This document shows positions 4,399 to 12,087 of a DNA stretch of 33,946 nucleotides, one piece after another. Position 1 is the first letter of the stretch, and each line of letters opens with the position of its first letter. This DNA comes from a virus, in the IMG/VR virus record IMGVR_UViG_3300046096_000517, positions 1-33,946 of that record; one strand, 5' to 3'. The notes under the pieces are model-generated. The model made no database searches. It was not told the DNA's origin and worked only from the letters and a program-made list of their open reading frames with translations. The translations under genes and the position numbers were made by a program.

Positions 4399-5445
4399 TT
4401 AAGCTGAACAATATTCAGTTATATAAACCACACCATTTGCACCATTCCCAGCAGCACCAGTTCCGCAACCACCACTACCGCCGCCGCCGTATAATTTGCC
4501 ATTTTTACCAGCCTCATTGTTTAAAGTTGTTGGTTCACCACCACTGCCCCAGTGAGAGCTTCCACCGTCACCATTGCCACGAAGAGAGCCACCAGTTGAA
4601 CCATTTTGACCGCCAATTTCAAGCTCCGCACCTGCCGAAACAGTAATACCGCCTGCACCACCAGCACCACCAGTTGCACCTTCAAGACCGCCAGTTCCAC
4701 CAGTGCCAGCAGCCAAAACACCAAGTGAGCTATTGCCACCTGAATTGCCATTATTGCCCGAAGCACCGCCAGTCCCACCCGCTCCGACCGTTACAGCTTT
4801 TGAAGCCCCGATTGTTGCTTTAGAAAAAATCGCACGATTAAAGCCAGCACCGCCACCGCCACCACCGCGAGCAACACTACCACTACCACCACCACCACCA
4901 CCACCACCTACTAATTCAGCAATGCAATAAAGCATATTAGTATTAGGGGTGTAAGTTCCGCTTGTCGTGAAAATTTGCCTGCGAATTACAAGCCCAGATG
5001 CAACCGAACTGGATAGTTGAAATTTCGCACCGTCGTAATGAATATAATAAAAAATTCCAGAAACAATCTCCCCCCCCGTTAATGCAGTTAATGAAGTGCC
5101 CAATAATTTTTCAAGTGCAATTGCACCAGCTCCATTTACATTTACCGTAACAGAGCCTGTATTGCTAGATGTAGCTTTAAACTTCACCCTTAATCCGTCA
5201 ACCAAAGCCGAAGCTGGTGATGTTGTTAATGTTATGGCGTTTGCAGTACCGCCAACGGTTGCAAGCGAAAAAACTTCATTTTGATAATCTTTATAATTAA
5301 CTAGCGGAATACCACCAATAGTTGAACCGTCACCAATAACTAATCTTTTATTAGTTGTGTCAACAATAGGTTCTGCCAATACAGGGGTTGCAGCTGCAAC
5401 TTCCGCATTAGTTCCACGCCTTAATTTTAATTCAGTGCTACTCAT
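4399..5445 (-). CDS. Tail fibre with glycine-rich receptor-binding domain
   Basis: 348 residues. Residues 1-50 (STELKLRRGTNAEVAAATPV, then VDTTNKRLVIGDGST and IPL) match the N-terminal virion-attachment motif common in phage fibres. Residues about 50-150 form a beta-rich shaft. Residues about 175-340 are extremely Gly-rich, with polyglycine loops (GGGGGGGGSGS, GGGGGGAGF, GGSGGCGTG) like polyglycine-sandwich adhesins. It probably recognises the host receptor. Two slippage-prone tracts lie inside: a run of eight G on the coding strand (5070-5077) and eight GGT codons (4885-4908). The start overlaps the tip-protein stop by four bases. Confidence 0.85.
   Translation of the reverse strand: MSSTELKLRRGTNAEVAAATPVLAEPIVDTTNKRLVIGDGSTIGGIPLVNYKDYQNEVFSLATVGGTANAITLTTSPASALVDGLRVKFKATSSNTGSVTVNVNGAGAIALEKLLGTSLTALTGGEIVSGIFYYIHYDGAKFQLSSSVASGLVIRRQIFTTSGTYTPNTNMLYCIAELVGGGGGGGGSGSVARGGGGGGAGFNRAIFSKATIGASKAVTVGAGGTGGASGNNGNSGGNSSLGVLAAGTGGTGGLEGATGGAGGAGGITVSAGAELEIGGQNGSTGGSLRGNGDGGSSHWGSGGEPTTLNNEAGKNGKLYGGGGSGGCGTGAAGNGANGVVYITEYCSA
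4885..4908. repeat. Trinucleotide repeat (ACC)8 in fibre gene
   Basis: Eight uninterrupted ACC units on the plus strand encode a polyglycine run (GGT codons) in the fibre. Slippage in units of three would change the loop length without breaking the frame. Confidence 0.85.
5070..5077. repeat. Homopolymer of eight C (G on coding strand) in fibre gene
   Basis: Codons ACG GGG GGG GAG of the fibre (Thr-Gly-Gly-Glu, about residues 123-126) give eight consecutive G in an AT-rich genome. Loss or gain of one base would truncate the fibre before its glycine-rich domain. Confidence 0.9.
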
Positions 5446-8405: not shown

Positions 8406-9004
8406 TAAAAAACCTCCATTGCGTCAAATGTTTTAGGTGAATAAATCCCGTTTTTATCACACTCCCACTGTGTCATTGTGTCACTGGTTAATATCATTCT
8501 GCACATAGACGGATTAAAAGTAATAGCAGCATTATCCGCTGGTGAATTTCGCAACATAGGCTTAAATGATAAAGTAACTTCACCACTTCCGTTTGAGTTT
8601 GCGTTAGCCGTAATTTGTTTTAATTCGCCATTGACCGTAAAATAATCACCAGCCATTGCATAATTAGTTATATTATTAGGGCAGCCGTCAATTAACAATG
8701 AACTTCCTGTTTGTGAAGCCCCCTTTACTAAGGGAGTTCCGCCCCATGAACCTAAATTATATTTACAATCCACATCATAACCGTAAAAATCATTTGTCAT
8801 TCCGTCCAATTGCAAAAAAAACGCACGCCAATTAATCCACTGCAAACGATTTAATGCGGGTAAACTATAGCTCGCACGCCACCTTGAACCACCAAGATTT
8901 AATCTTTGAATGTTACGATTAATTGGACTTGTAAAAGTTTGAGTGTTAGTTTCTAAATAAAAACTTGCACTTGTAAATTTATTTGACGGCATTGAAATTG
9001 TCAT
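8405..9004 (-). CDS. Distal tail protein-like minor tail protein
   Basis: 199 residues, beta-rich. The N-terminal NIQRLNLGGSRWRASYSLPA and INWRAFFLQLDGMTNDFYGY followed by a carbohydrate-module-like middle (about 90-150) and LTSDTMTQWECDKNGIYSPK are typical of the tail protein just after the tape measure in this phage type. It probably forms the ring at the distal end of the tube to which tip proteins attach. Its start overlaps the tape-measure stop by four bases. Confidence 0.72.
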   Translation of the reverse strand: MTISMPSNKFTSASFYLETNTQTFTSPINRNIQRLNLGGSRWRASYSLPALNRLQWINWRAFFLQLDGMTNDFYGYDVDCKYNLGSWGGTPLVKGASQTGSSLLIDGCPNNITNYAMAGDYFTVNGELKQITANANSNGSGEVTLSFKPMLRNSPADNAAITFNPSMCRMILTSDTMTQWECDKNGIYSPKTFDAMEVF

Positions 9005-10764
9005 CTTATCCCCACAACTTGAGAAGCCGAACCGCCTCTTTGAATACTACTAAAAACCGCATCATGTGCAGCCTTTGCAATTCGCGGTGCAGCGTCTTTA
9101 ATATGTGCAGTTATTAAAGAAGGCACATCGTTTGATATTTGAAAATTTTGTACAACTGTTACACCATTTGCACCATTCCCACCCCTTATTTGATTGGCTT
9201 GTGAAGCTGGTATAATCATTTCCCCCTTATGAACCTGTGCAATCATATCTGAAGGTAAATTATAAGCACCAACCGCAAAAGAAGGCAATATTGAGCTTAA
9301 TAAACCACTACCGCCTTGACCATTGCCAATTAAAGCAGTCGATAAAGGGTCGGTTATTGACCGCTGTATTATGGTTTTAGCTATTTGTTTAGCGAAGTTT
9401 TTCGCAGCATCACTTGCATTGTTAAAATCAATAATTGCACTTGCTAAACCGTCACTTAAAGCAGTTCGCATTTCTTCCGCACGCCTTGCAGCCTCATATT
9501 GTGCTTCCGCAATAGCATAATTGCTTTCAGCAACCAATCTATTTTTATCAGCTAATTGTTCAGCATTTTTAATCCCTGCTTTCTGTGCTAAGTCCAAAGT
9601 GCGATAATAAACCGCCATACCTTCCTGTTGTTGCGGAGTTAATGATTGAATTTTATATTGTCTTTCAAGACTTAAATTATATTCGTCAAGTGATTTTTTT
9701 GCGTTATCTAATTCTTTCTGTTTATTATTTGCTGATTTATCACCTTTAACTTCTGGCGTGAATTTAGTAGCAACTATCGTATTTTCAGCAGCAGGCGGAT
9801 TAATTTCCTTTAATGCGGAATTAACCTCATGTAATTGCGTTTTGAGTTCCGCCACCCGACTAATAGCAGTTTCGGTTTGAGCTTCTAAAGATGTAAATAA
9901 TATTCCATCAGCAAAAGAGGGTTGTTTGGTTGCTAAATTATCAAGATTAGCTTGCTCTTTTTTTAATCTTTCCGTTAAATCCAATTTCTTACTACCTAAT
10001 TCGGCATTGCCTAAACTGGTTAAATTCCCCTTTAATCGCTCTATAGAATTATTAATATCATTAATAATATTATAAGCTGTGACAAAAGCACCCTGAGCAA
10101 CTCTTTGAATTACAGCCCCCGCCGTATCCCATTTATCCGCAAAATCCGCCATGCGTTCAGTGTCTTCAGATGTGATAACTAAACCAAGCCTCTCGGCTTC
10201 GGCAATAGCGTTTCTAATACCTTCCGCGCCTTGATTAAAAAGCGGTGCTAAATCAGCTCCCGACCTTCCGAATATATCCATTAAGACTTTAGTTCGCTGT
10301 GACACAGTGCCAAGTCCTGCCACTTTATCCGCAATTTGCGTGAATTGCTCAATTGTACTTAGGTTTTGAAAATCCTTTATTGAAATTCCAATTTGTTCAA
10401 ATGCTTTCGGCGTGTCAATAAGGTTGTTATTCATAAACCTGAAAGCATTGGCTAGATTGCCAATTTCAACACCATTTTGCTTTGCGTAAAGTTGCAAACT
10501 AGACAAAGTTTCAACTGAAACACCCGTCTTGGTTGCCATTTCGTCTAGGGCGTCACCTGCTTGAATTGCGGAAAAAACCAAGTTTGAAAATCCGATACCC
10601 GCAACCAAAGGAATTAAACCCTTAAAAGCACCCGATAATCTATTTAAGTTTGATGACATGGCATTTGAACTTGACTGAACCGCAGCCGTTGCCTTAGTCA
10701 ACTCCGACTTAAAACCAGCTGCATCAGCTTTTATCGTTACAACTAATTCGTCAAGACTTGCCAT
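9001..10764 (-). CDS. Tail length tape measure protein
   Basis: 587 residues. The N-terminal ~220 show the tape-measure signature (LDELVVTIKADAAGFKSELT...GDALDEMATKTGVSVETLSS...FGRSGADLAPLF). A coiled-coil middle follows (about 230-450), then a hydrophobic Gly-rich part (IIQRSITDPLSTALIGNGQG) and FAVGAYNLPSDMIAQVHKGE, common near the C-terminus of such proteins. At about 0.15 nm per residue it predicts a tail near 88 nm, which is short for a siphophage. The protein is chaperoned by the two frameshift-related proteins encoded just upstream. Start ATG 10762-10764 overlaps the chaperone stop. Confidence 0.9.
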   Translation of the reverse strand: MASLDELVVTIKADAAGFKSELTKATAAVQSSSNAMSSNLNRLSGAFKGLIPLVAGIGFSNLVFSAIQAGDALDEMATKTGVSVETLSSLQLYAKQNGVEIGNLANAFRFMNNNLIDTPKAFEQIGISIKDFQNLSTIEQFTQIADKVAGLGTVSQRTKVLMDIFGRSGADLAPLFNQGAEGIRNAIAEAERLGLVITSEDTERMADFADKWDTAGAVIQRVAQGAFVTAYNIINDINNSIERLKGNLTSLGNAELGSKKLDLTERLKKEQANLDNLATKQPSFADGILFTSLEAQTETAISRVAELKTQLHEVNSALKEINPPAAENTIVATKFTPEVKGDKSANNKQKELDNAKKSLDEYNLSLERQYKIQSLTPQQQEGMAVYYRTLDLAQKAGIKNAEQLADKNRLVAESNYAIAEAQYEAARRAEEMRTALSDGLASAIIDFNNASDAAKNFAKQIAKTIIQRSITDPLSTALIGNGQGGSGLLSSILPSFAVGAYNLPSDMIAQVHKGEMIIPASQANQIRGGNGANGVTVVQNFQISNDVPSLITAHIKDAAPRIAKAAHDAVFSSIQRGGSASQVVGIR

Positions 10765-11331
10765 GTTTTTTTATCATTTCTTTTAATTCAGCAATATCAT
10801 CATCATGTAAATTACTTGGTTTTTTAATTCCCTTAGAAATTGCGTAACCTTCATAGGCGTCTGCTACTTCCCAAGTTGTTGCACCCCAAAAATCAGAAGG
10901 CGACCACCTCAAAACACCTAAACAGAATTGCCTGTATTCTTGCCATGCGAAACTAGGGTATTTTTCAACCCTGTTATCAACTCCCCCAACTTGCTTGCTA
11001 CCTCCGCACGCTCACTAGGTTTTGAAATACAAATTCGAATAAATAAAAACACTTGTAAGCACAAATTAACATAATTATCACTTGCAATTCCTAATTCCAT
11101 TATTTCATTTTGAATTTCTGATAATGGTTTATTTTTACCAGTTGACTTTATTAAAACAAAAATAATATTAGAAATTTCATTTAGTTTATAATTATAGCCT
11201 TTTTGTGCAATTTCAATAATACCAGTTTTTAAGCTATTTTCTATTGCTTCCAATAAATTAAAAGTGCCCTCAAACTGGTATAATTCATCACCTAGCAATA
11301 ATTCACCTTTCGGCTTTTGCGGCTCATACAT
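10751..11331 (-). CDS. Frameshift fusion tail assembly chaperone (G-T type, DUF2376-like C-terminus)
   Basis: A conserved DUF2376/rcc01693-like segment (FCLGVLRWSPSDFWGATTWE...LHDDDIAELKEMIKKHGKS) is encoded at 10751-11011 in the -1 frame relative to the upstream chaperone. In that frame there is a stop at 11012-11014 and no ATG, GTG or usable TTG before the conserved core. A -1 ribosomal shift within the overlap is therefore the simplest way to make it, as for lambda gpG-T. If the shift is at GGG (10984-10986, inside a run of five G) the fusion is 193 residues (116 + 77). The fusion is expected to bridge the tape measure and tail tube during assembly. The exact slip site is an inference. Confidence 0.72.
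10918..11331 (-). CDS. Tail assembly chaperone (GTA TAC / gpG-like)
   Basis: 137 residues. The start MYEPQKPKGELLLGDELYQF and FNLLEAIENSLKTGIIEIAQ match the gene-transfer-agent tail assembly chaperone family: a small beta N-terminus, then a helical body. It lies between the tail tube protein and the tape measure, the universal position of these chaperones. It is made at higher level than the -1 frameshift fusion, which shares its first ~116 residues. Its start shares a base with the stop of the preceding gene (TAATG). Confidence 0.82.
   Translation of the reverse strand: MYEPQKPKGELLLGDELYQFEGTFNLLEAIENSLKTGIIEIAQKGYNYKLNEISNIIFVLIKSTGKNKPLSEIQNEIMELGIASDNYVNLCLQVFLFIRICISKPSERAEVASKLGELITGLKNTLVSHGKNTGNSV
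10983..10987 (-). promoter_or_regulatory. Candidate -1 ribosomal slip site (GGGGG)
   Basis: On the coding strand TTG GGG GAG (10989-10981) contains five G. A Gly-tRNA on GGG can re-pair with GGG one base back and then read GGA in the chaperone frame. It is not a canonical X-XXY-YYZ heptamer. The nearby TTG AAA AAT is a weaker alternative. Confidence 0.45.
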
Positions 11332-11682: not shown

Positions 11683-12087
11683 TTATATCCTTGTAAATGT
11701 TGTTGAACCACTTGATTTTAATGAAGCCGTGAAAGTAACAGCTCCTTGTTCTTCACCAGTTTCAACATAATTTTCAATGAAAAAACTACCTGCTAATTTA
11801 TCAGCATTTTGACCAAATAATTGAAACGGATTAATAGTACCAGCAATTGAATAACCTTTAAAAATTTTAAAAGTAGCCTCATCACCAACAATTCCGTCAA
11901 TATCAATATCAATTGATTGCGTGCCAGAACTTTCAAGTAATTCACGCCAGCCCCCACTATCTTTATTTGTAATATCCACTAAACCGTTATTAAGTGTCAT
12001 TTTAGCCACCTTAACGCCTGCTACCGTGCCACCCGTTCCGTCAAGTGCTAACTTTAGAACGAATAACCTTCCTTTTTGTTTTGCCAT
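11683..12087 (-). CDS. Major tail tube protein (TP901-1 family)
   Basis: 134 residues. The N-terminus MAKQKGRLFVLKLALDG and the pattern VAKMTLNNGLVDITNKDSGGWRELLESSGTQSIDIDIDGI, then FFIENYVETGEEQGAVTFTA, are typical of the TP901-1/GTA major tail protein, which polymerises as hexameric rings. The ribosome site GGAG precedes ATG 12085-12087. Position after the tail-completion gene and before the chaperones supports the call. Confidence 0.88.
   Translation of the reverse strand: MAKQKGRLFVLKLALDGTGGTVAGVKVAKMTLNNGLVDITNKDSGGWRELLESSGTQSIDIDIDGIVGDEATFKIFKGYSIAGTINPFQLFGQNADKLAGSFFIENYVETGEEQGAVTFTASLKSSGSTTFTRI

Follow-up and report, generated by a model that had tools for sequence, protein, structure and literature searches.

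A predicted -1 frameshift fusion of a GTA-gp10-type tail assembly chaperone with a TAC_6 (DUF2376) domain at a candidate G_GGG_GAG slip site in a phage genome

Anatomy of the tail chaperone locus

The window analysed here is the whole of a 33,946-nucleotide stretch of viral DNA (IMG/VR record IMGVR_UViG_3300046096_000517, positions 1 to 33,946). Two overlapping reading frames lie on its minus strand among tail genes (Table 1). Gene 1 starts with ATG at 11331 and stops with TAG at 10920–10918. The second ORF is in the -1 frame relative to gene 1; it is bounded on the 5' side by a stop at 11014–11012 and ends with TGA at 10753–10751. The overlap between the two is 91 nt, and a run of five G residues (G5) occupies 10987–10983. 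The gene order is tube, tail protein, gene 1, TAC_6, tape measure, and distal tail. Upstream of gene 1 are the tail tube gene (PF06199) and a gene for a 126-aa tail protein, and downstream is a tape measure gene (phrog_9483, E=4.7e-33), followed on its 3' side by genes for a distal tail protein, a DUF6950 protein, and a J-like protein. Therefore, with tube genes upstream and the tape measure gene downstream, the locus is in the lambda G/GT position. The portal, large terminase, and major head protein genes are located further upstream. Elsewhere, the tail fibre gene (4399–5445) contains an eight-G run at 5070–5077 (minus strand), which may be a tract of variable length; in this sequence the reading frame is unbroken.

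Table 1. Coordinates of the features at the tail chaperone locus of the window; the last row refers to loci in other phages.
Feature	Position	Strand	Basis
Gene 1, tail assembly chaperone, gpG-like / GTA-gp10-like (Phage_TAC_11), 137 aa	10918..11331	-	ORF, profile, fold
-1 frame ORF, T-like, 86 aa	10751..11011	-	Open frame, TAC_6 match
TAC_6 / DUF2376 domain (PF09550), -1 frame only	10850..10951	-	Pfam and profile from relatives
Candidate slip site G_GGG_GAG	10981..10987	-	Gene-1 codons TTG GGG GAG; -1 frame GGG GGA GTT
GGAGGT Shine-Dalgarno-like element, candidate frameshift stimulator	11000..11005	-	12 nt 5' of slip site
Possible hairpin downstream of slip site, core stem AGGGU/ACCCU	10948..10979	-	Weak prediction
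Tape measure protein gene, directly downstream of pair	9001..10764	-	phrog_9483 match
Tail tube protein gene (PF06199), upstream of pair	11683..12087	-	Pfam match
Unannotated gaps, open in -1 frame	L135:3512-3691, L136:3443-3598, L137:3665-3847		

Among the 190 ORFs of the window, gene 1 is the top match of its own jackknife profile, i.e., a profile of its relatives minus this phage (E=2.8e-4). Against Pfam PF11836 (Phage_TAC_11, GTA-gp10) it scores 12.4 bits, under the Pfam cut-off of 27.8 bits, and this cut-off is exceeded by gene 1 of the relatives L002, L056, and L101. The AlphaFold model of gene 1 is confident (pLDDT 88.9), and Foldseek finds it similar to predicted phage proteins, one of which is annotated 'Tail assembly chaperone protein' (probability 1.00, E=3.0e-3, TM 0.54–0.61). 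Neither a sequence comparison nor a fold comparison (no E below 0.001 in the latter) links gene 1 to a solved structure, and a protein search of GenBank phages with gene 1 gave no match. Gene 1 is linked to Phage_TAC_11 only through the three relatives, the jackknife profile, and the fold.

The -1 ORF contains SFAWQEYRQFCLGVLRWSPSDFW, a match to Pfam PF09550 (Phage_TAC_6, DUF2376) with E=7.1e-4 and 20.4 bits against a curated cut-off of 23.4. Several relatives in the TAC_6 profile pass this cut-off, and a jackknife profile of the relatives, with this phage excluded, picks the -1 ORF at E=4.6e-21 among the same 190 ORFs. On this sequence evidence, the TAC_6 match of the -1 ORF is real. The Pfam and jackknife matches bear out an earlier, sequence-only reading of this DNA, which had placed a DUF2376-like segment in the -1 frame only. 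The same reading reported the 5' stop and the lack of a start codon ahead of the conserved FCLGVLRWSP, and both are as described: no ATG, GTG, or TTG occurs in the -1 frame 5' of SFAWQEYRQFCLGVL, nor does any CTG, ATT, ATC, or ATA when the codons are read by eye. The earliest candidate start in this frame is TTG 10912, within the conserved domain.

Frame relation and heptamers among relatives

Beyond a near-identical contig and a single distant relative, single-sequence scans of IMG/VR gave no matches, and an alignment query was needed. This query, run on viral and bacterial collections, yielded with the earlier matches 74 unique loci with gene 1 and TAC_6, of which 51 form a non-redundant set at 85% nucleotide identity; this set includes L001, the twin of the window. 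In every one of these 51 loci, TAC_6 is read in the -1 frame relative to gene 1, and 34 of them are without any start codon across the overlap and on to position 5 of the domain. Phase conservation alone is no proof of frameshifting because ATGA-type overlaps also give the -1 phase. An in-phase X_XXY_YYZ heptamer is present within the overlap in 46 of 51 loci, compared with a mean of 4.2 and a maximum of 11 in 500 codon shuffles. The overlap has 0.048 heptamers per codon pair, and the part of the same genes upstream of it has 0.002; the commonest heptamers are GGGAAAC, AAAAAAA, AAACCCT, GGGAAAA, and GGGAAAG. A frameshift fusion of the GTA-gp10-type chaperone with the DUF2376 segment is, as judged from sequence, very probable.

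The proposal of a -1 fusion, likely at the G5 run, is upheld here by the absent start and by the -1 phase of all 51 loci, whereas the claim that its partners or its slip site are unusual is not. The pairs keep the -1 frame throughout, and a canonical in-phase heptamer is present in nearly all (46); GTA-gp10/DUF2376 pairs are thus usually arranged for slippage. An alignment of homologues had been suggested as a check on whether the frame relation and the G run are conserved. The frame relation is conserved, and a slip site lies in the overlap of most relatives, as counted above. In L025, the closest divergent relative (its J-like protein is 54% identical), the codons aligned to TTG GGG GAG of the window are ATG GGA AAG, i.e., lambda's GGGAAAG, which supports a slip at this position.

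Some members of the family do provide TAC_6 with its own start. In L101, L103, and L124, which are alphaproteobacterial GTA or prophage copies, it is an ATGA/TTGA overlap, and in others, e.g., L006 and L114 (5' ATG), it is an ATG or GTG on the 5' side. The sequence-only reading held that a homologue with an independent start would speak against the fusion; since such starts exist in some relatives (L101, L103, L124, and L006), that objection applies to parts of the family only, and not to this phage or its nearest relatives. Among the alphaproteobacterial GTA/prophage copies, overlapping starts in L101, L103, and L124 stand beside slip heptamers in L125 and L128 (CCCTTTC, with no start 5' of the domain), and the -1 phase is kept.

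Ribosomes of this phage that terminate at the gene-1 stop could, in principle, reinitiate at TTG 10912, a few nucleotides past that stop, and make a free 53-aa protein with no frameshift, as is conceivable from the starts used by L101, L103, L006, and L124. However, this product would lose the conserved SFAWQEYRQFCLGVL part of the TAC_6 domain. L025 has no start codon whatsoever near the domain, the strong Shine-Dalgarno (SD) sequence is about 90 nt from TTG 10912 and cannot serve it, and reinitiation leaves the heptamers of the 46 relatives unexplained. An own start codon was weighed and rejected, and reinitiation is considered very unlikely.

One of the 74 loci, L057, is off the -1 phase by an extra A in an A run near 778–830 when compared with L059, probably a sequencing error or a recent indel. 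A one-base sequencing or assembly error, or a real inactivating indel, could similarly have split a once-continuous gene in the window: homopolymers are prone to indels and the junction falls in one, and L057 versus L059 resembles such a case. Against this, a second IMG/VR contig with the same frame is 99.98–99.99% identical over 6–10 kb and ungapped across the site, and an isolated base-calling error is therefore unlikely. In addition, the -1 relation is kept across very diverged phages, and both halves are intact and conserved. A sequencing error was thus also weighed and rejected, and a split gene is hardly credible.

In syntenic phages of Roseobacter and Pelagibacter, the -1 ORFs are of another T family and went unmatched by the TAC_6 profile. 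In the cultured Roseobacter phages CRP-406 and CRP-811 and the cultured Pelagibacter phage HTVC202P, the interval that separates the putative chaperone from the tape measure gene is an unannotated gap (Table 1), and gene 1 ends AAA AAC TAA with an in-phase A_AAA_AAC. Because the -1 frame stays open through the gap, which follows a terminal slip heptamer, the annotation of these phages probably overlooked a frameshifted protein that is T-like but not TAC_6.

Slip site and candidate stimulators

G_GGG_GAG is an in-phase slippery sequence inside the overlap. It is not a classical X_XXY_YYZ heptamer, yet it is a described motif. In the genes of this phage, in-phase G_GGG_GAN occurs three times in 6352 codon pairs, which gives 0.014 expected per 30-codon overlap, and both GGG and GAG are minor codons. 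A scan of the 91-nt overlap found no other in-phase heptamer. The G5 site is most likely where slippage would take place. A -1 shift elsewhere in the overlap, e.g., near TTG AAA AAT, or transcriptional slippage at the G run would be conceivable, as the overlap is long and G runs are able to slip. However, other in-phase heptamers are lacking in the overlap, the position of G5 coincides with the L025 heptamer, and G_GGG_GAA is present within the L002 and L056 overlaps. Five Gs are short for polymerase slippage. Transcriptional slippage and other slip sites in the overlap were weighed and rejected, and shifting by either route is regarded as improbable.

A G5 site in place of a standard heptamer had been called unusual in the sequence-only reading, which does not agree with the literature: GGGGGAA is already described for tail chaperones (PMC10885494, PMC5506516), and G_GGG_GAR, in the form G_GGG_GAA, is within the overlap of L002, L056, and L113. 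GGGGGAA is the sequence of all of the roughly one thousand 'fivetwo' motifs that PRFect reports in the SEA-PHAGES data, and the explanation given is that tRNA-Glu re-pairs with GGA through a G:U pair (PMC10885494). The annotation of the corynephage phi16 tail assembly genes includes GGGGGAA together with an internal SD and a pseudoknot (PMC5506516). The motif class is thus already published, and literature support for slippage at G_GGG_GAR comes from annotation. A systematic E. coli assay covered X_XXZ_ZZN heptamers and Z_ZZN tetramers only, and G_GGG_GAR is outside that set (PMC4066793). Reporters gave 6–7% shifting for two other tail-chaperone frameshift genes (PMC3711429).

Upstream of the slip site, GGAGGT pairs with the anti-SD at -10.8 kcal/mol, the strongest among the 51 relatives, most of which lack a strong upstream SD. 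Its spacing of 12 nt fits the 9–14 nt that stimulates -1 shifting (PMC5009743). Pairing of -10 kcal/mol or better forms only 8 clusters in 19,066 sense coding positions; therefore, the chance of an SD being placed within the stimulating range is estimated to be of the order of 0.3%. Downstream, the core stem of a predicted hairpin begins about 5 nt past the slip site. The hairpin was dropped as evidence for frameshifting, as it is not significant against shuffles (z = -1.4).

Proposed mechanism and comparison with known systems

It is highly probable that the pair is a tail assembly chaperone locus that works like lambda G/GT, in which a -1 slip at G_GGG_GAG gives the fusion. Most ribosomes would read gene 1 to its own stop and produce a 137-aa gpG-like chaperone. 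A minority of ribosomes would slip by -1 at G_GGG_GAG (10987–10981), where tRNA-Gly would re-pair from GGG to GGG and tRNA-Glu from GAG to GGA with one G:U pair. The resulting fusion of about 193 aa would consist of gene-1 residues up to 117 followed by approximately 10981–10754 (76 aa), with the junction ...ASKLGE-VDNRVEKYPSFAWQEY..., and its C-terminal part would be the gpT-like TAC_6 domain. The internal GGAGGT, and perhaps also the small hairpin, may stimulate the slip. By analogy with lambda, the gene-1 product may coat the tape measure protein and the fusion may recruit tail tube subunits. Shifting presumably does occur at this locus; its efficiency, the exact slip codon, and a biological need for the fusion are likewise presumptive.

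A more tentative idea, which we consider rather doubtful, is that the lineage swapped the canonical GGGAAAG, kept in L025, for G_GGG_GAG, in which the A-site tRNA-Glu would form a mid-codon G:U pair, so that efficiency would depend on the near-perfect internal SD. If true, the locus would be a natural case of a strong stimulator compensating for a weak slip motif.

The locus adds a well-supported predicted case of chaperone frameshifting in the GTA-gp10/DUF2376 families. In the family, the -1 phase is nearly universal, while members differ in their slip site and in how the second protein is made, by a slip or from an overlapping start. The T half is truncated or missed by gene callers that rely on finding a start codon.

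Like lambda G / G-T, the pair is located between the tail tube and tape measure genes and its second domain has no start of its own, and the closest divergent relative has lambda's GGGAAAG. Unlike lambda, the T part belongs to the TAC_6/DUF2376 family, the slip site is G_GGG_GAG, and there is a strong internal SD. The GGGGGAA chaperones of the SEA-PHAGES set and phi16 share the G5 slip with a Glu codon in the A site, and an internal SD and a downstream structure are described in phi16 too; here, in contrast, GAG replaces GAA, and the phage has 34% GC and is not an actinophage. Alphaproteobacterial GTAs and prophages have the same GTA-gp10 (PF11836) and DUF2376/TAC_6 (PF09550) families in the same order and phase, but in several of them an ATGA/TTGA overlap start replaces, or accompanies, a slip heptamer. 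The -1 cassette of E. coli dnaX also combines an upstream internal SD, a slip site, and a downstream hairpin, although its heptamer is A_AAA_AAG, it serves another gene and purpose, and the hairpin here is weak.
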